A stretch of DNA of 59,972 nucleotides from a virus (IMGVR_UViG_3300041402_000464:1-59972); one strand, 5' to 3'; positions 10,051 to 17,189 are shown, numbered from the stretch's first letter. Made by a program: numbers and translations. The notes: generated by a model from the sequence alone, not told the origin.

Positions 10051-10458
10051 ATGGGTAAGCGTGGTGAGATTCATCCGGTATACGGTATGACGGAAGCGGC
10101 TTTCTTTGGTAAGTTTAGAGCAGCCATAAGGAAGGAATGGCGCAATAGTAAAATGTATAAAGATGTAGTCTTAAAGGCACGAATACCATGCACCGACGGT
10201 AGTAGAAAGAAGTGGGTAGTGCCTTGCGCTGACTGCGGTACGTTATATTATCTTGACCAAAGAATTAAGGTTCCTACTGCCGATGGCAAGAAGATGAAAG
10301 ATGTTCCGGCATACCAAAGAGATCATAAGACTGACGCTGGTTCATGTAGGACGTTTAAAGAGATAGGGGAGTTTGCTGAGAAAATGAATTGTCCATCTGA
10401 AGAGTTGCAGATAATGTGCTACCACTGTCACTATAAGAAAACACATAAAAAGGAGTAG
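10051..10458 (+). CDS. HNH-like zinc-binding protein
   Basis: The 135-residue protein has a CADCG knuckle (about residue 57), a central YQRDHKTDAGSC (Asp-His of an HNH active site) and a C-terminal CYHCHYKKTH (second Cys pair and the final His). This order matches compact HNH nucleases with a structural zinc. A nuclease role in recombination or junction processing fits its place between recT and ssb. ATG 10051 follows AAGGAGA. Confidence 0.68.
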   Translation: MGKRGEIHPVYGMTEAAFFGKFRAAIRKEWRNSKMYKDVVLKARIPCTDGSRKKWVVPCADCGTLYYLDQRIKVPTADGKKMKDVPAYQRDHKTDAGSCRTFKEIGEFAEKMNCPSEELQIMCYHCHYKKTHKKE

Positions 10459-10464
10459 GTTGCC

Positions 10465-10947
10465 ATGGCAAGTGAATCAACTCAGTTCAAAGAAGGCGAG
10501 GAACACACCAACTGGAAAGGTGGATATTATTATGATGCTTGTGGATACAAAAGAATATTAATATCCAAAAATACCTATCGGTGTGAGCATGTACTTGTCA
10601 TGGAAAAACATCTTGGCAGAAACCTGTTAGCAGATGAGATTGTCCATCATAAAAATGGGGTAAGGGACGATAACAGGTTAGAAAATTTAGAGTTGATGTC
10701 TCGGAGCCAGCACAACCGACTTCATCAAACCGGGAAAAAGGCTTCGGAAGAAACAAGGGCAAAATTTAGGCGTCTCAGGAAGGGTACAAATCAAAAAGAA
10801 AGTCATAACCAGTGGAGGTCTGATATAACTAAAGACAAAGTAATAGATGTTATCGCGCAAACAAAAACATTTAAAGAGGCAGCTAAATTTTTAAATATAA
10901 CTGCCGATGCACTAAGGATACGACGAAAATATTATAATTTAAAATAA
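10465..10947 (+). CDS. HNH homing endonuclease
   Basis: The 160-residue protein has the HNH_3 signature: EHVLVMEKHLGRNLLADEIVHHKNGVRDDNRLENLELMSR-type sequence (His-His-x-Asn-Gly near residues 58-66), followed by SQHNRLH. The C-terminal part (TKTFKEAAKFLNITADALRIRRK) is a helix-turn-helix for target recognition. It is a free-standing mobile gene inserted between phage genes; homologous modules appear at 53635-54243. Confidence 0.88.
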   Translation: MASESTQFKEGEEHTNWKGGYYYDACGYKRILISKNTYRCEHVLVMEKHLGRNLLADEIVHHKNGVRDDNRLENLELMSRSQHNRLHQTGKKASEETRAKFRRLRKGTNQKESHNQWRSDITKDKVIDVIAQTKTFKEAAKFLNITADALRIRRKYYNLK

Positions 10948-10959
10948 GGAGGTTTAAAT

Positions 10960-11397
10960 ATGTCAGGTTTAAATAAGGTCCAGCTCATTGGTAATGTGTG
11001 TCATGACCTTGAAGTGAGATACACAAAAAGCGGCCAGGCCGTGACGAGTTTTAGTCTTGCAACTAATGAAAGGTGGACGAAAAAAGACGGCACAAAAGAG
11101 GACAAGACAGAATTTCATCGCATTGTGATCTGGGGGAAGCTGGCTGAAATATCAGGGGAATATCTCTCTAAAGGAAAACAAATTTACGTCGAGGGTAAAA
11201 ATCAGACAAGGGAGTGGGACGATAAAGAGGGTAATAAGAAGCAGACTACAGAGGTTGTGTGTCACGTTATGACTATGCTTGGTCAGGCTTCGGGTTCTTC
11301 CTCTCCGTCTACTGGTGACAGTTCTGCTTCGTCTGGTGGCCAACAAAGCTCAAGCGATGGAGAACCAGACTTCGAGGACGACGACATCCCTTTTTGA
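10960..11397 (+). CDS. ssb: Single-stranded DNA-binding protein
   Basis: The 145-residue protein begins with the canonical SSB OB-fold (SGLNKVQLIGNVCHDLEVRYT; FHRIVIWGKLAEISGEYLSKG; YVEGKNQTREWDDKEGNKK), then a Ser/Gly/Gln linker and the acidic tip DDDIPF that recruits host replication proteins. Its length and ending are like bacterial SSB. AAGGAGG precedes the ATG. Confidence 0.95.
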   Translation: MSGLNKVQLIGNVCHDLEVRYTKSGQAVTSFSLATNERWTKKDGTKEDKTEFHRIVIWGKLAEISGEYLSKGKQIYVEGKNQTREWDDKEGNKKQTTEVVCHVMTMLGQASGSSSPSTGDSSASSGGQQSSSDGEPDFEDDDIPF

Positions 11398-11403
11398 TCT
11401 ACA

Positions 11404-11560
11404 ATTTGTGAGGTGGCAACAAAGCCTGTCAATCAACTGTCAATTGCATTGATACCTAACGGGCCTCACGATCCTTAATTTCATTGAATCCACTATTACA
11501 GTGGATTCATTAAAGGGAAGGATAACGCCATTATCAGCGGCCGCATTTAGAAGGGAGACC
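11404..11560. other. Structured intergenic element C before the cassette array
   Basis: It opens with TTGTGAGGTGGC, identical to the start of element B, and GTGAGG pairs with CCTCAC near 11465-11470. Further on, GAATCCACT and AGTGGATTC (11485-11507) form a perfect 9-bp hairpin with a 5-nt loop, flanked by ATCCTT/AAGGAT. No gene is seen here. ACCTAAC at about 11453 could be a decayed attC R'' box. Confidence 0.45.
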
Positions 11561-11561
11561 T

Positions 11562-11876
11562 ATGAACACTGAAACGGGAACAGAAAGCAACACAGATCAA
11601 AGTGAGACAACGGTTAGCGGTCGGTTGCATAAATTTGTTATGCCTGTCGTGCTTGGAGAAGGTAAAAAGTGGGATCGGACAATCCCCTTCTCAAAACTAA
11701 GCGAGGAACTGGCTGAAAGGAAACTCGGGCAAACTTTAAAACAACTGATGGAGTGTGGTGGGGTATCCCCCAGCGAAGCAATAGCTATTATGGAGGGCGA
11801 CGCTTGGAATCATGTATCCGATAAAATTGGTTTAGAGATATTAAACCATATATTCTATGCAGCACCAAAGGCATAA
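11562..11876 (+). CDS. Cassette 1 gene, hypothetical protein
   Basis: The 104-residue frame starts at ATG 11562 behind AAGGGAG. An alternative start is the ATG at 11640, which lies within the cassette border GTTATGCC and would give the shorter protein beginning MPVVLGEG. The core (KLSEELAERKLGQTLKQLMECGGVSPSEAIAIME) is helical with no family recognised. The stop codon TAA sits inside the right border GGCATAAC, as is usual for integron cassette genes. Confidence 0.7.
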   Translation: MNTETGTESNTDQSETTVSGRLHKFVMPVVLGEGKKWDRTIPFSKLSEELAERKLGQTLKQLMECGGVSPSEAIAIMEGDAWNHVSDKIGLEILNHIFYAAPKA

Positions 11877-11998
11877 CGACCAAGATCAGGGGCTTGCGGG
11901 CCACCTGAGACAAAGGAGGAATTAAGACAATGACTGAAGAAGCGAAAACCCCAGACGAAACTAGTGGTAGCGAGTCCCTTGCAGCGCCTGGTTCTGCC
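11870..11998 (+). repeat. attC-like site between cassettes 1 and 2 (partly overwritten)
   Basis: R'' GGCATAAC and L''-like GACCAAGATCAGG are followed by a hairpin: TCAGGGGC 11886-11893 pairs with GCC-A-CCTGA 11900-11908, with one extrahelical A. The matching 3' half appears displaced to CCTTGCAGCGCC-TG-GTTCTGCC (11977-11998), beyond a new ribosome site and start codon at 11930. Confidence 0.55.
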
Positions 11999-12211
11999 GC
12001 GCCTAGATATTTTACCGTGGGGGAACTTTGGGGGCCATGCCCATGCTTAGTGGATGGATGCCCGAGTTATCTGGCTTGGACTATTAAATTGACTGCCGAG
12101 GAAAATAATAAGCTACCCGAGCAATCTGGACCGGAAGCTGTAAAATATATATTCAAGCATAAATTAGGAATACCAATGTGTGAAAGTTGCTTGGGAAAAG
12201 AAAAGCGGTAG
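11930..12211 (+). CDS. Cassette 2 gene, Cys-rich hypothetical protein
   Basis: This 93-residue protein starts at ATG 11930 behind AAAGGAGG. The first 25 residues (Glu/Thr/Ser/Ala-rich) are encoded upstream of the putative cassette border at 11991 and look like a late-added extension. The core (YFTVGELWGPCPCLVDGCPSY ... PMCESCLGKEKR) has Cys pairs that could bind zinc. The TAG stop lies in the right border GGTAGAAC. Confidence 0.68.
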   Translation: MTEEAKTPDETSGSESLAAPGSAAPRYFTVGELWGPCPCLVDGCPSYLAWTIKLTAEENNKLPEQSGPEAVKYIFKHKLGIPMCESCLGKEKR

Positions 12212-12244
12212 AACAATTAAGCTCAGGGTCTTCGGACGCTGGAG
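12207..12244 (+). repeat. attC-like 5' half after cassette 2
   Basis: GGTAGAAC (12207-12214) is followed by CTCAG-G-GTC (12222-12230), a TTCG loop and GAC-G-CTGGAG (12235-12244), a stem with extrahelical G. A candidate 3' half, CCTTGCAGCGCC then GTTATCTG, occurs only at 12394-12415, inside the next gene. Confidence 0.5.
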
Positions 12245-12255
12245 GAGGCGGAAAG

Positions 12256-12570
12256 ATGGATTGTGTAAATACAGAATGTGATGGATATGATGAAAACTGT
12301 GTGGATAACTGTAGTGCGTCAGATATGTATAAAGCTGAAGAGTGTTGTGACTATAAACCCCTTAAAGCCCAGACAGAACCCGTGGCCGAAGTACCTTGCA
12401 GCGCCGGGTTATCTGTGGAGCTATTAAAAGAAAGATGTGAGGGACTAGAAACCATTCAAACCTGTTTCGAAGATGCGGCAAAAAATGTGATTACCGGATG
12501 GGAATCGGATGATAAGCAAATGTTTATTAGAGGGATAAAGGGATTGCAGATATTAATGGGGAACAGATAA
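12256..12570 (+). CDS. Cassette 3 gene, Cys-rich N-terminus fused to helical core
   Basis: The 104-residue frame starts at ATG 12256 behind GGAGGAGG. The N-terminal 50 residues carry many cysteines (CVNTECDGYDENCVDNC; EECCDY). The rest (ELLKERCEGLETIQTCFEDAAKN) is helical. The cassette border GTTATCTG (12408) falls inside the gene, so the original cassette protein may have begun at GTG 12414; the Cys-rich part would then be a fusion. The stop is inside the right border CAGATAAC. Confidence 0.66.
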   Translation: MDCVNTECDGYDENCVDNCSASDMYKAEECCDYKPLKAQTEPVAEVPCSAGLSVELLKERCEGLETIQTCFEDAAKNVITGWESDDKQMFIRGIKGLQILMGNR

Positions 12571-12620
12571 CTATGAATTCAGAGCGAGCGTTAGCGATGC
12601 GCTGCAATGGCGTGTTATGG
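12564..12620 (+). repeat. attC site between cassettes 3 and 4
   Basis: R'' CAGATAAC (12564-12571) and R' GTTATGG (12614-12620) enclose partly complementary arms (ATTCA-GA-GCG with CGCTGCAAT) with unpaired extra bases. Length is about 57 bp, within the usual attC range. Confidence 0.72.
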
Positions 12621-12647
12621 CACATGATTATCTAGGAGGATAAAAAA

Positions 12648-12848
12648 ATGGGGTTGGTAAACGGATTATTAAGATGTAAAAACTCTACAAGTGGAGAACA
12701 TTCTTGGAGAGGCTCGGACGAACAGAGAGCGCCTAGAGACAGAGGCAAGCCCGAAGTGTGTAGCTTATGCAATCAATTTCTTGAAACCGTAAAGAAGAGA
12801 ACAGAAGATTATCGTCAAGCCCTAGAAGAAGGGCGCGAAACATTTTAG
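12648..12848 (+). CDS. Cassette 4 gene, small zinc-finger-like protein
   Basis: The 66-residue frame starts at ATG 12648 behind AGGAGG, 27 bases after the left border GTTATGGCAC. It contains C-x(8)-H near the N-terminus and CSLCNQF in the middle, with charged flanks (RGSDEQRAPRDRGKPE), suggesting a small zinc-binding protein. Unknown family, as is usual for cassette genes. Confidence 0.7.
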   Translation: MGLVNGLLRCKNSTSGEHSWRGSDEQRAPRDRGKPEVCSLCNQFLETVKKRTEDYRQALEEGRETF

Positions 12849-12852
12849 GATT

Positions 12853-12925
12853 GTGCCATAACTGTGAGCTAAATCGCTGACATAAACGAAGTGTTGGCAG
12901 TCGAAATTTCAGCGCTTTGTTATGC
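12853..12925 (+). repeat. attC site between cassettes 4 and 5
   Basis: GTGCCATAAC (12853-12862) and GTTATGC (12919-12925) flank arms with interrupted pairing (GAGCT-AAAT-CG-CTG with CAG-TCG-AAATTTC-AGCGC). Length is about 70 bp. Confidence 0.75.
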
Positions 12926-12948
12926 GCTGGCTAATTAAGGAGGATAAA

Positions 12949-13152
12949 TTGGAAGAGATGATAAATAAGATATGCGGTCAATTGCCGGAAGGCTGGGAAA
13001 TAAACTTGTGCATGGAAAACGGTGCGGCCTGGGTGGAGTTAATTAGCCAGAACGGAAACGGAGGAGAGGACATGCATATAGATGGGGGAGATAAAACCCT
13101 TGAAGAGCAATTAAATGAGGCATTGTGTGTTGCTAACGGGTTTAGCGCATAA
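12949..13152 (+). CDS. Cassette 5 gene, small acidic protein
   Basis: A TTG at 12949 directly follows AAGGAGG with a short spacer and gives 67 residues. An ATG at 12922 inside the border GTTATGCGC is in frame but has no ribosome site. The product (EEMINKICGQLPEGWEINLCMENGAAWVELIS) looks like a small alpha/beta protein. The TAA stop is part of the right border GCGCATAAC. Confidence 0.66.
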   Translation: MEEMINKICGQLPEGWEINLCMENGAAWVELISQNGNGGEDMHIDGGDKTLEEQLNEALCVANGFSA

Positions 13153-13275
13153 CGATGGAGCTAACCAGCCACGGGGTAAAGGCTAAAGCCCTCAAGTTAG
13201 CATTATTATTTATTAACCTTTCCCTTATCCAACTTGACACCTCTGTTAGTGGTCTGGTTGAGCGTGGGGTTAGGT
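13145..13275 (+). repeat. attC site between cassettes 5 and 6 (long type)
   Basis: R'' GCATAAC (13147-13153) and R' GTTAGGT (13269-13275) frame a 129-bp site. L'' GCTAACCAGCCAC (13160-13172) pairs completely with L' GTGGTCTGGTTGAGC (13249-13263), apart from two extrahelical bases, the hallmark of folded attC DNA. Confidence 0.82.
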
Positions 13276-13796
13276 GATGAAGCGTTGGTTGAAATATCTT
13301 CCTTTTGCGGCAACGGTTCGGCTGTTTTTTTATGAAGAGCCGATGACTGAGAAGCGGATACTTCTTGAGACACTGTATTTTTCATTTTTGCTTGGAGGTA
13401 TATCGTGCCCATTGACGCTGTGGCTGCTATTAAAGCTCCAAGCAGGGCACCAATGAAAGCAAAAATTGCTAATTTTTTAGATAAAGCAATTTGCTTGCCG
13501 TGAATTTCAAGAGTGAGGTCTTCTTGTTTCTGATAAATTTCACGTGTAAGTTCAGCTTGTTTATCGTGAAGACGTCTAGCAGAAGAAGATTGATCGGAGG
13601 CAAGATTATGGTTGGCGCGAAGTTGTTCTTCAAGAAGTTGTTCGTTGAGACTATGTTGCTCTTCAAGTGACTTGTTTTTTAGAACAAGTTTAATAATCTC
13701 GAAGTCTGAGCTGGTGCCACCAAGTTGAGCAATAGCATGACAAAGATCAGATGGTTGCATGGAACTATAATATAAAAATTTTTCTGATGGATTCAT
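13206..13796 (-). CDS. Cassette 6 gene, reversed: coiled-coil membrane protein
   Basis: The 196-residue protein is read against the direction of the other cassette genes. Residues 45-100 form a Gln/Glu/Leu-rich coiled coil (LEEQHSLNEQLLEEQL; KQAELTREIYQKQEDLTLEI). Residues about 110-132 form one membrane helix (LAIFAFIGALLGALIAATAS), and the remainder is a low-complexity polar tail. The last 23 codons read through the 3' half of the attC site (13206-13275), so the C-terminus is probably not conserved. Its ribosome site AGGTG lies in the border at 13805. Function unknown; a membrane-acting cassette protein is a reasonable guess. Confidence 0.68.
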   Translation of the reverse strand: MNPSEKFLYYSSMQPSDLCHAIAQLGGTSSDFEIIKLVLKNKSLEEQHSLNEQLLEEQLRANHNLASDQSSSARRLHDKQAELTREIYQKQEDLTLEIHGKQIALSKKLAIFAFIGALLGALIAATASMGTIYLQAKMKNTVSQEVSASQSSALHKKTAEPLPQKEDISTNASSPNPTLNQTTNRGVKLDKGKVNK

Positions 13797-13804
13797 ATTT
13801 TAAA

Positions 13805-13876
13805 CACCTAACGAAAAAGCTAACCCTGTTGGCTGAACGGAGTGAAGACAATCCGTGGTTGAGCGCGGGGTTAGAC
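13805..13876 (+). repeat. attC site between cassettes 6 and 7
   Basis: R'' CACCTAAC (13805-13812), arm GCTAACC (13819-13825) and distal ACGGA pair with TCCGT-GGTTGAGC, then R' GTTAGAC (13870-13876). It shares GGTTGAGCG-GGGGTTAG (one variable base) with the attC at 13255-13273, showing the two sites are related. Confidence 0.82.
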
Positions 13877-13891
13877 AAAATGGAGGTTGAC

Positions 13892-14095
13892 ATGGGATGG
13901 TTAACAAGGTTATTTGGGCAGAGTGGGAAAGTAAGGTTTGAAGGCGTGACTATCGAAGGGCAAAAATTTACAGGGAAAGTTAAAATAGAAATATTTAACA
14001 TGGACAAAGAGGAAATTGAAGCCAAGCTGAAAGATATGCTTTATGTAGAAACTGGACAGAAAGCAAGAGAGCTTCATATTGTGGCTTTTGTCTAA
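13892..14095 (+). CDS. Cassette 7 gene, small beta-rich protein
   Basis: The 67-residue frame starts at ATG 13892 behind GGAGG. An upstream ATG at 13880 lacks a site. The sequence (MGWLTRLFGQSGKVRFEGVT...KFTGKVKIEIF) has alternating hydrophobic strands and a final helix, a compact fold typical of small cassette proteins. The stop TAA lies in the right border GTCTAAC. Function unknown. Confidence 0.72.
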   Translation: MGWLTRLFGQSGKVRFEGVTIEGQKFTGKVKIEIFNMDKEEIEAKLKDMLYVETGQKARELHIVAFV

Positions 14096-14154
14096 CGACC
14101 AAGATCACCGGAAGGCACCGCAGGTGACTTTCCGTGTGAAGCGCATTGTTATCT
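14090..14154 (+). repeat. attC site between cassettes 7 and 8
   Basis: R'' GTCTAAC (14090-14096), then GACCAAGATCAC. TCAC-CGGAA pairs with TTCCG-TGTGA with one extrahelical base, then AGCGCATTG and R' GTTATCT (14148-14154). It is 65 bp long and the most canonical-looking attC of the array. Confidence 0.83.
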
Positions 14155-14181
14155 TGCGCTATTAATAGAGAGGATAAGTCA

Positions 14182-14361
14182 ATGAATGATTTTATAAAGT
14201 TATTGAAGAAGTTACTTGTTGCCGAAAACAATAAAACAGAGGAAGAAGCTGAAAGGATTGTGAAGAAGCATCCTAACATTGTGACGCAGGGGATTATGAG
14301 CAACAGATTGAGAGCGACAGCTATGGCATTAGAAATGGCCGAAGATAAGGAAGCAAGATAA
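14182..14361 (+). CDS. Cassette 8 gene, small helical protein
   Basis: The 59-residue frame starts at ATG 14182 behind AGAGGA. It is wholly helical and charged (MNDFIKLLKKLLVAENNKTEEEAERIVKKHPNIV..., shown in part). The stop is inside GCAAGATAAC, which is complementary to the left border GTTATCTTGC. Beyond it no complete attC 3' half is visible, so the array ends here. Confidence 0.7.
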   Translation: MNDFIKLLKKLLVAENNKTEEEAERIVKKHPNIVTQGIMSNRLRATAMALEMAEDKEAR

Positions 14362-14398
14362 CCTTAGAATATGTGGACATTTAATCTTGAGATAGATT

Positions 14399-14770
14399 GT
14401 GGATAAGTTTGCTAAACATAAGAAACTTAGAAAGAATCAGCGTAATAGGAAGCAATATTTGCGCTTAAATTCTGACGAGCCTATTCGAGAACCATATTAT
14501 CAGCCACCCCAGTTAAGAGGTATCAGGATTTACGGCGACATGGATATGGGATATCTCAGGCTTATCTATATTTCCTTATGGAATAGCGGAAGGATCGACT
14601 CATATTTTGTCAGAAGAGAAAAGCCTGAGAATATAGGCCATAGACCTAAACTGGATGATGATCATAAAGGCTGGTGGTTGGACGATGGAGGCAATAAAAA
14701 GAAATATGGCAAGGTCAACCTTGATAAAGAGATTAGACGCGCTATGCCTGGAATAAGAAGGTTTGATTAG
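14399..14770 (+). CDS. Hypothetical basic protein
   Basis: A GTG at 14399 opens a 123-residue frame with a very basic N-terminus (KFAKHKKLRKNQRNRKQYLR) and a mixed core rich in Tyr, Arg and Asp-Gly turns. No family is recognised. The ribosome site is weak. It directly follows the cassette array and precedes a promoter. Confidence 0.6.
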   Translation: MDKFAKHKKLRKNQRNRKQYLRLNSDEPIREPYYQPPQLRGIRIYGDMDMGYLRLIYISLWNSGRIDSYFVRREKPENIGHRPKLDDDHKGWWLDDGGNKKKYGKVNLDKEIRRAMPGIRRFD

Positions 14771-14852: not shown

Positions 14853-14966
14853 ATGAAAAAATACTTTAAACATAGAACCCCCTTGTTATGGATGCTGGTT
14901 GCTGAAAGGCGCTGGAGCGGTCATTTCCCGTTCGCAAACTCCATGACAAGGGGGTTGTGCGTTTAA
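14853..14966 (+). CDS. Leader peptide ORF overlapping a strong hairpin
   Basis: ATG 14853, with GAGG eight bases ahead, opens 37 codons (basic, Trp-containing) that span the whole hairpin at 14876-14956 and end 11 bases before the next gene. Translation of this leader would melt the stem, so it may act as an attenuator or translational switch. No protein family is expected. Confidence 0.4.
   Translation: MKKYFKHRTPLLWMLVAERRWSGHFPFANSMTRGLCV
14876..14956 (+). promoter_or_regulatory. Long hairpin in the 5' leader of the replication operon
   Basis: AACCCCCTTGTTATGGA (14876-14892) pairs over 17 bp, with a single G-U, to 14940-14956, enclosing about 47 nt. It lies between the promoter and the ribosome site of the next gene. 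Confidence 0.6.
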
Positions 14967-14977
14967 GGGAGACTGTT

Positions 14978-15364: not shown

Positions 15365-16162
15365 ATGAAACATAATTACGTCCCAGATGGATGCTTTCTC
15401 TTAGCCAGACAGATATTTGAATCTGCTATATGGAGAGATGATCCGCACGTCCTGAAGTTGTTTATTTATTTGATGGGACAGGCTCGACATAATACGAAGC
15501 CTAAAAAATATCCTTCTTTTGAGGTCAAGCGGGGGGAACTGGTAACAAGTCTTGCAAAAATCTCTGAAGAAAATGAGTATAGCCAGAACGGAACTATCAA
15601 AACTTGGCCCCGAATGAAGATATCTAGGATGCTTGATTTACTAGAAAAACAGGGTTACGTTAAGAAGCTTTGTGACACCTATGGTACACATATAAGTATA
15701 TGTAATTACAACACTTATCAGGATATCAACAACTACAAGTGTGACAGTGGTGGTACACAAGTGTTACAGGACTGTTACAGCGGTGTTACAGGGGTGTTAC
15801 TAAACAAGAATGTAAAGAAAGGTAAGAATGTAAAGAAAGAACCGTCAGTAGGGTTTGAAGATTTCTATAAAGCATACCCTAAAAAGAAAAGCAAAGGTCA
15901 AGCTGAGAAAACTTGGCATAAGCTTTCCCCTGATAGCGATCTTTTAAAAGAAATACTAATAGGCTTAGAGTCAGCTAAGAAGTCTGAGGACTGGACCAAG
16001 GACAATGGTAAGTATATTCCTCACCCATCAACGTGGCTAAATGCTAAAGGATGGGAAGACGAAATAACCGAGTCTAAAGACTATGAAGTAATTATAGACG
16101 GCGTATCTACTCCCATGACCGAAACAGAGTATAAGCAATGGAAGGTTGATAATGAAAGATGA
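15365..16162 (+). CDS. Replication initiator-like protein (phage O/DnaT-like)
   Basis: The 265-residue protein has an N-terminal winged-helix region (GCFLLARQIFESAIWRD...; RMKISRMLDLLEKQGYVKKL), as in phage replisome organizers. A Lys-rich linker leads to a C-terminal module (FYKAYPKKKSKGQAEKTWHKL...YIPHPSTWLNAKGW) common in lambda O-like and primosomal proteins. It should bind the origin and load the helicase encoded next. Confidence 0.78.
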   Translation: MKHNYVPDGCFLLARQIFESAIWRDDPHVLKLFIYLMGQARHNTKPKKYPSFEVKRGELVTSLAKISEENEYSQNGTIKTWPRMKISRMLDLLEKQGYVKKLCDTYGTHISICNYNTYQDINNYKCDSGGTQVLQDCYSGVTGVLLNKNVKKGKNVKKEPSVGFEDFYKAYPKKKSKGQAEKTWHKLSPDSDLLKEILIGLESAKKSEDWTKDNGKYIPHPSTWLNAKGWEDEITESKDYEVIIDGVSTPMTETEYKQWKVDNER

Positions 16163-17189
16163 CGGATACATGGACGACTTGGCTGCTGAAAATGAAGCTA
16201 TAGACCGTATTGAGCATTTAGAGGGGAAAGTATCCTTGTGGGTACTTCAAGCACATGGCGAGTTTAGATTATCTGAAATTGTTAAGGACTTAGGCATAAC
16301 TTCAAGCGACGATGTTAGCGGTTTGAAGGATGCTCTCTATGGGTTGTGCTGTGCTGGCAAGATCAAGGAGAATAAAAAGAAGAACGGAGTATACAGAAAG
16401 CTTGATATTGAATTAAATAAAATGAAGCGGGTAGAGAACAGGCCCCTGCCGATGGATCTAATTTGGCCACTTAAATTACATGAAAGGGTTATTACTAATA
16501 TTGGATCGCTCATCGTTGTAGCTGGGATTCCTAATTCTGGGAAGAGTTGTTTCTTTTTGAATTTTGCCGATATGAATAAAGATAAATATAAAATCAGATA
16601 TGTTTCGTCTGAGTGGACAAACGCGGAAAGGGATGAACAGCTTGAAAGCTTCGGGGCAGATATCGACGAATGGGACAGTAAGATAGATTTCTACGCAAAA
16701 AAAGATGTAACAAGTTCATTTGATAATTATATCGACCCTGAGAATATTACAATTATAGACTATTTTGAGAGCTATGATGATTATGCAGGCATAGCAGGGG
16801 CATTAAGGGATATTGCCGATAAACTCACTACGGGTATCGCCATTGTAGGACTGCAAAAAAAGATTGGTGCTGCTCATGGTAGCGGAGGTGAGGGAACTAA
16901 AAACAGGGCTCAACTTTATATAAATATAGATAGAAACGAACTTGATCCCCGGAAACGAATTGCTACTATCACGAAACTAAAGAAGGCCACCGATAGAAAG
17001 TACAGCATAGAGCATTTGAGTTGCGAGTTTGAGTACAGCGACAAAGGCCGCATGGTAGAGCAAACAGGATGGGGCAAGATAGTTGAGATGAAGCAGAAGA
17101 ACGTATTGGTGGAGAAATATATCCAGGTAGAGCGTTGGGCTAACCAGAAACCTAAAGAGGAAGAGGAGCCAATATCATGGACCAGGTAA
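16152..17189 (+). CDS. DnaB/RecA-type ATPase, replicative helicase or loader
   Basis: About 345 residues. A winged-helix-like N-terminus precedes a RecA-fold ATPase with Walker A AGIPNSGKS (about residues 124-132) and Walker B ITIIDYFE (about 195). A later LKKATDRKYS segment could supply a sensor or finger function. The protein lacks the canonical DnaB N-terminal domain, so it is better called a RepA- or DnaB-like phage helicase. ATG 16152 has GGAAGG upstream and overlaps the initiator gene by 11 bases. Confidence 0.78.
   Translation: MKDDGYMDDLAAENEAIDRIEHLEGKVSLWVLQAHGEFRLSEIVKDLGITSSDDVSGLKDALYGLCCAGKIKENKKKNGVYRKLDIELNKMKRVENRPLPMDLIWPLKLHERVITNIGSLIVVAGIPNSGKSCFFLNFADMNKDKYKIRYVSSEWTNAERDEQLESFGADIDEWDSKIDFYAKKDVTSSFDNYIDPENITIIDYFESYDDYAGIAGALRDIADKLTTGIAIVGLQKKIGAAHGSGGEGTKNRAQLYINIDRNELDPRKRIATITKLKKATDRKYSIEHLSCEFEYSDKGRMVEQTGWGKIVEMKQKNVLVEKYIQVERWANQKPKEEEEPISWTR

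Follow-up and report, generated by a model that had tools for sequence, protein, structure and literature searches.

A cassette array of the integron type in a phage genome without an integrase gene, with seven of eight cassette genes running against their attC sites

Integron cassettes are regarded as a bacterial system, in which the polarity of the attC recombination sites ensures expression of the cassette genes from the integron promoter. The phage genome IMGVR_UViG_3300041402_000464 (59,972 bases, the entire IMG/VR record; the whole of it is called the window here) has a run of small open reading frames (ORFs) with paired borders at 11520-14362, which raises the question of whether cassettes of this kind can also belong to a phage and, if so, how their genes are oriented. 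This locus is a phage-borne cassette array of the integron type that lacks an integrase, and it is classed as a phage CALIN (cluster of attC sites lacking an integron integrase) because no tyrosine recombinase is encoded. Seven of its eight genes are opposite to their own attC sites ("mirrored"), and opposite polarity recurs in most of the other viral arrays tested.

Eight units with matched borders

The array is made up of eight consecutive units with GTT and AAC borders, and the R''/R' complementarity that marks an integron cassette array or CALIN is exact over 8-11 nt in seven of them and near-exact (one mismatch) in U2. From left to right they are U1 at 11637-11877 (ORF 11562-11876; borders GTTATGCCT and AGGCATAAC), U2 at 11991-12214 (ORF 11930-12211; GTTCTGCC and GGTAGAAC, containing the mismatch), U3 at 12408-12571 (ORF 12256-12570; GTTATCTGT and ACAGATAAC), C at 12614-12862 (ORF 12648-12848; border match 11 nt), D at 12919-13153 (ORF at about 12949-13152; match 10 nt), E at 13269-13812 (ORF 13206-13796; match 8 nt), F at 13870-14096 (ORF 13892-14095; GTTAGACAAAA and TTTTGTCTAAC) and G at 14148-14362 (ORF 14182-14361; GTTATCTTGC and GCAAGATAAC). 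The initial annotation had already described these eight units and their matched borders, with coordinates that proved correct to within one base. The region has eight inverted GTTA/TAAC pairs of at least 8 nt; 1000 dinucleotide shuffles gave 0.067 on average and two at most, and the remaining genome has one. None of the eight cassette proteins has a significant family in Pfam, PHROGs or NCBIfam, no related loci were found for cassettes F and G, and by tblastn cassette F has no match in plasmids and cassette G none in phages.

The attC sites lie on the minus strand

Folding of single sites was uninformative and became informative once the two borders of one cassette were rejoined. Canonical attC geometry consists of R'', a 5-nt spacer, a 3-bp start of L'', an extrahelical base at position 9, L', a 3-6-nt spacer and R'; it fits all eight sites, and does so only when the minus strand is read. 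The extrahelical base and unpaired spacers expected of an integron cassette array or CALIN are thus present throughout, with the base at position 9 in eight of eight sites. Reading the sites on the plus strand was rejected because both the spacer and the extrahelical-base geometry fail there. The folds with extrahelical bases that had been noticed earlier are real, with canonical geometry on this one strand.

A covariance model (R1) was built from 45 aligned bacterial attCs from 20 intI-anchored regions; on 17 intI-anchored bacterial loci it found 125 attCs, 125 of 125 on the strand predicted from intI. When both strands of all 60 kb were searched, its five best scores were five sites of the array, all on the minus strand (31.8, 25.5, 19.5, 16.8 and 12.9 bits), and the sixth was plus-strand noise at 11.2 bits. 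The strongest is the attC of cassette F (13806-13876; 31.8 bits, E 7e-6), followed by those of E (13147-13275, model match 13150-13272; 25.5 bits unfiltered and 36 bits with default filters), G (14090-14154; 19.5 bits), C (12565-12620; 16.8 bits) and D (12856-12925; 12.9 bits). Clustering of two or more attCs is characteristic of such arrays, and here five model matches fall within 1.6 kb and eight sites are recognized by geometry. The initial annotation had called for at least four model matches, a number that is exceeded, and neither of the signs it had named as contrary (absence of attC matches, and conserved intergenic hairpins in distant phages) was found. The three left-most sites, also on the minus strand, are long (124-207 nt) and weak: that of U1 (11520-11643, 124 nt) has canonical geometry and scores 7.7 bits, which is noise level, and the degenerate sites of U2 (11871-11997) and U3 (12208-12414, 207 nt) are identified by geometry alone. 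The attC of U1 includes the ribosome-binding site and ATG of its ORF. The ORFs of U1, U2 and U3 (11562-12570) all begin within these decayed sites, so that their first codons consist of old recombination-site sequence, and the stretch CTTGCAGCGCC is common to two of them.

A search pattern made from two of the attCs matched bacterial integrons (Rhodocyclaceae, Dechloromonas and others), and three of the four bacterial genomes with similar attCs that were checked have a strong intI; no viral contig matched that pattern. Nothing in the entire 59,972-base record matches the tyrosine recombinase family PF00589, so the intI of a complete integron is missing. Together with the five R1 sites, this bears out the earlier suggestion of an integron-type array without an integrase gene. 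Position 14362 is the end of the array, on the attI-like or attG-like side of a minus-oriented array.

Most cassette genes run against their attC sites

Codon usage places the coding frame on the plus strand for U1, U2, U3, C, D, F and G and on the minus strand for E. All eight attCs are on the minus strand and seven genes are on the plus strand; those genes are therefore inverted relative to their recombination sites, and only cassette E, whose ORF reads through into its own attC, is canonical. Genes that run along attC are typical of integrons and form no part of the CALIN definition; here seven of eight ORFs run the other way. The initial annotation was right about the array and overlooked this opposition of attC and gene. 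In the survey pipeline described below, the called cassettes of the window were five against and one along (p = 0.0003 at the bacterial rate).

Polarity in other viral contigs and in bacterial integrons

A degenerate attC pattern found at least 120 stretches in IMG/VR, and the counts of this first scan are drawn from among the matches listed, in which R1 identified 363 attCs in 80 of the loci. Forty-nine contigs were tested, of which 17 have a terminase large subunit; intI scored above cut-off in three, none of them among those 17. Codon usage, trained on the long genes of the contig in question, served to score the direction of each cassette, with one script for phages and bacteria. The 17 terminase-bearing contigs without an IntI match over the cut-off gave 79 cassettes against, 2 along and 20 unclear, with mostly-against polarity in every one of them, and bacterial integrons gave 10 against, 62 along and 19 unclear (Fisher p about 2e-29). 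Ribosome-binding sites agree: in phages a Shine-Dalgarno motif lies ahead of the longest against-ORFs in 68 of 96 cases and ahead of along-ORFs in 2 of 87; the bacterial figures are 11 of 98 for against-ORFs and 32 of 102 for along-ORFs. The direction of the longest ORF was dropped as a criterion, being too weak in GC-rich contigs, in favor of these two measures. A second terminase-bearing set, obtained partly via a different attC pattern and partly from first-scan loci previously unscreened for terminase, gave 16 against and 0 along, and viral contigs without a detected terminase gave 65 against and 2 along. Several phages carry arrays in both absolute orientations, each of them mirrored. Long genes flanking the arrays are co-directional with the mirrored ORFs in 30 of 39 cases.

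A border match of 7 nt or more between neighboring sites occurs in 68% of phage units, 70% of bacterial units and 10% of mispaired controls; the viral units match at bacterial frequency and are therefore true integron-type cassettes. Array segments that contain attC sites are common to different phages (84% identity between G199 and G204, 76% between G175 and G189, and 89% between G204 and MW202573), and some attC sites are near-identical between phages. These shared cassettes suggest that cassettes may be exchanged among phages. DNA methyltransferases of several families (N6/N4, C5 and MT-A70) are among the largest mirrored cassettes, at L205 1519-2313, L217 5594-6355, L197 6876-7496, L196 16757-17299 and L070 2686-3186; a homologous family is present in the bacterial integron locus L055, as a plus-strand gene in canonical direction.

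Comparison with known integrons and phage arrays

The initial annotation knew of no well-characterized parallel, but phage CALINs have been described in Tetrasphaera phage TJE1, Pseudoalteromonas phage H101, Polaribacter phage P12002L and Myoviridae MW202573, and IntI1 recombined five of six tested phage sites with attI1 (Qi et al. 2023; PMC9892861). Like these, the window is a phage genome that has attC sites with small cassettes and lacks intI; it differs in having eight cassettes with genes that run against attC. The text of PMC9892861 makes no mention of reversed polarity; when re-read here, MW202573 is reversed (five attCs on the minus strand, annotated genes on the plus strand, borders matched) and TJE1 is not. 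In TJE1 (L016) three attCs, one found by R1 and two by eye, and the annotated ORFs are all on the plus strand. The TJE1 array (L016 77-1530) adjoins an ssb gene, as does that of the window, possibly by coincidence. R1 gave no match on P12002L and H101, so the polarity comparison among these four phages covers TJE1 and MW202573. Phage CALINs were thus already known, and systematic mirrored polarity is apparently undescribed: we found no description of mirrored phage cassettes in the open-access literature searched.

Sedentary chromosomal integron arrays (betaproteobacterial loci L041-L060) have attCs of the same family as the window and likewise matched R''/R' borders, but their genes run along attC (62 to 10) and intI is present. 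In the "reverse integrons" of Treponema, intI is flipped and runs toward attI, and the cassette genes run away from intI (PMC3607928). This geometry was rejected for the window, which has no intI. Two viral contigs, L248 (8264-14350 of IMGVR_UViG_3300044858_004705) and L249 (1-4581 of IMGVR_UViG_3300037311_000474), have intI downstream of a mirrored attC array, with cassette genes running toward intI and co-directional with it. They are like the Treponema integrons in that intI shares its strand with the cassette genes, and unlike them in that intI keeps its usual direction, away from the array, while the cassette genes run toward it; their arrangement differs from both canonical and Treponema integrons. 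L248 encodes a VapE-like helicase and ParB, a search for terminase in L248 and L249 found it in neither, and the two may be phages, phage-plasmids or host DNA. Insertion at attG, by which cassettes enter bacterial genomes outside integrons (Loot et al. 2024, as cited in PMC12901181), could be a route by which a first cassette entered a phage genome, the process being described there for bacterial genomes; no attG was identified in the window, which has only the single boundary at 14362.

The phage genome and the surroundings of the array

The genome is probably complete, because its two 127-bp ends are identical. It encodes a RecE-like exonuclease, RecT, a single-strand DNA-binding protein (SSB), a DnaD-like initiator, a DnaB-like helicase, a terminase, a portal or head-tail protein and a major head protein. 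The array begins soon after the SSB gene (10960-11397, plus strand; phrog_44, 1.1e-53) and ends just ahead of ORF 14399-14770, and the DnaD-like replication initiator gene lies farther right (15365-16162, plus strand; phrog_270 / phrog_2514). An Rfam search of the window and a DNA-similarity search of its left 25 kb against known phages gave no match, and RecT yielded no related loci. Near the array locus IMG/VR offers a single relative, L001; the corresponding position there is occupied by other genes, and the L001 contig stops 2.9 kb upstream.

Three neighboring features may be mentioned. An inverted repeat, AACCCCCTTGT.TGG / CCA.GACAAGGGGGTT, lies at 14865-14967, immediately right of the array; it is not an attC and is possibly a regulatory hairpin. 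To the left, between RecT and SSB (10051-10947), there are two short ORFs that are candidate HNH-type endonucleases by eye only. Among the named phages, relatives of the DnaB-like helicase (16146-17189) are limited to two, which come from viruses of methanogenic archaea, and the remaining replication module is bacterial-looking.

Discussion

The locus is very probably a mobile phage array of mirrored integron cassettes, each an attC with a small inverted gene, that was assembled in trans by an integron integrase, since the phage itself has no tyrosine recombinase. The cassettes would be moved by such an integrase during infection; as the initial annotation proposed, it may be an integrase of the host, and the phage could spread cassettes by transduction. 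The insertion-proximal end would be on the right (14362) because the attC sites read on the minus strand, with the oldest and most degraded sites probably at the left end (11520). The mirrored genes have the same direction as the other phage genes and would be expressed within that run.

Several observations weigh against this interpretation. Cassette E is canonical in the window itself, and TJE1 is a clear exception among published phage arrays. Without codon usage or ribosome-binding sites, the longest ORF gives a phage excess of just 61 to 37. The first IMG/VR sample came from one attC pattern, among the matches listed, and is biased toward strong sites of proteobacterial type; the survey contigs are metagenomic; and none of the relatives found is close enough to display cassette turnover. 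Cassette E may have entered a mirrored array as an ordinary cassette of bacterial type, which would explain why it points against the phage genes.

We infer two possible reasons for the mirroring. The attC strand that integron integrases recombine is the folded bottom one, and this sets the orientation of the cassette at attI (PMC11023631), so a mirrored gene would be antisense to the promoter, and silent, if its cassette landed in a host integron. In addition, recombination is more frequent when the attC bottom strand is on the lagging-strand template, and in most chromosomal integrons the leading-strand template carries this strand (PMC8946536). The recombinogenic bottom strand of a mirrored cassette is the coding strand, and would be the lagging-strand template provided that genes and replication are co-directional; a lagging-strand advantage of mirrored cassettes is conditional on that arrangement. 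Mirroring could in this way have two effects, silencing of the gene in a host integron and greater mobility of the cassette in the phage. Whether phages in general keep their own mirror-image cassette pool, separate from the bacterial one and exchanged by host or viral integron integrases, with genes expressed in the phage and silent in a host integron and with the recombinogenic attC strand as the coding strand, seems to us evenly balanced.

Strand logic could also be irrelevant, if one early inverted array fixed the polarity of all later insertions. Insertion at an existing attC preserves array polarity, so that only mirrored genes would be expressed, and the almost identical attC sites of some phages agree with such a founder; on the other hand, several phages with largely unrelated backbones have arrays in both absolute orientations, each mirrored. 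We consider this founder effect possible, if somewhat doubtful; it addresses only the reason for the mirroring and is compatible with a mobile array assembled in trans. It is unlikely that the array is an ordinary phage CALIN, in which canonical bacterial cassettes were taken from a host integron by chance and polarity is unremarkable. Such arrays are known (PMC9892861), and TJE1 and cassette E have the polarity they would predict, but mirrored cassettes prevail by 79 to 2 in the 17 contigs and by 16 to 0 in the further terminase-bearing set, versus 10 to 62 in bacteria, and the 5 to 1 of the window is improbable at the bacterial rate (p = 0.0003). Less probable still is a mere resemblance to attC on the part of phage terminators or intergenic hairpins: the repeats do sit between co-directional genes, and those of the window are weaker than bacterial attCs, but the R1 matches agree in primary sequence, extrahelical base position and pairing, some of the related sites in phages exceed 60 bits, and matched cassette borders are as frequent as in bacteria. 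Finally, small ORFs are difficult to call and the length-only excess is modest (61 to 37), but it is scarcely credible that the mirroring is an artefact of annotation or direction with the real genes on the attC strand, since codon usage and ribosome-binding sites concur, the plus frames of the window score best for codons, the same pipeline gives the opposite result on bacteria, and several mirrored genes are recognizable DNA methyltransferases.

The mirrored polarity of these integrase-less phage arrays bears on the open questions of where cassettes originate and how array polarity is maintained. Because several mirrored cassettes encode DNA methyltransferases, the mirrored pool may provide protection against host restriction. 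If the systematic flip in phages is true, it would constitute a second, virus-adapted cassette pool and would yield a rule, open to test, on which cassettes are transferable between phages and bacteria.

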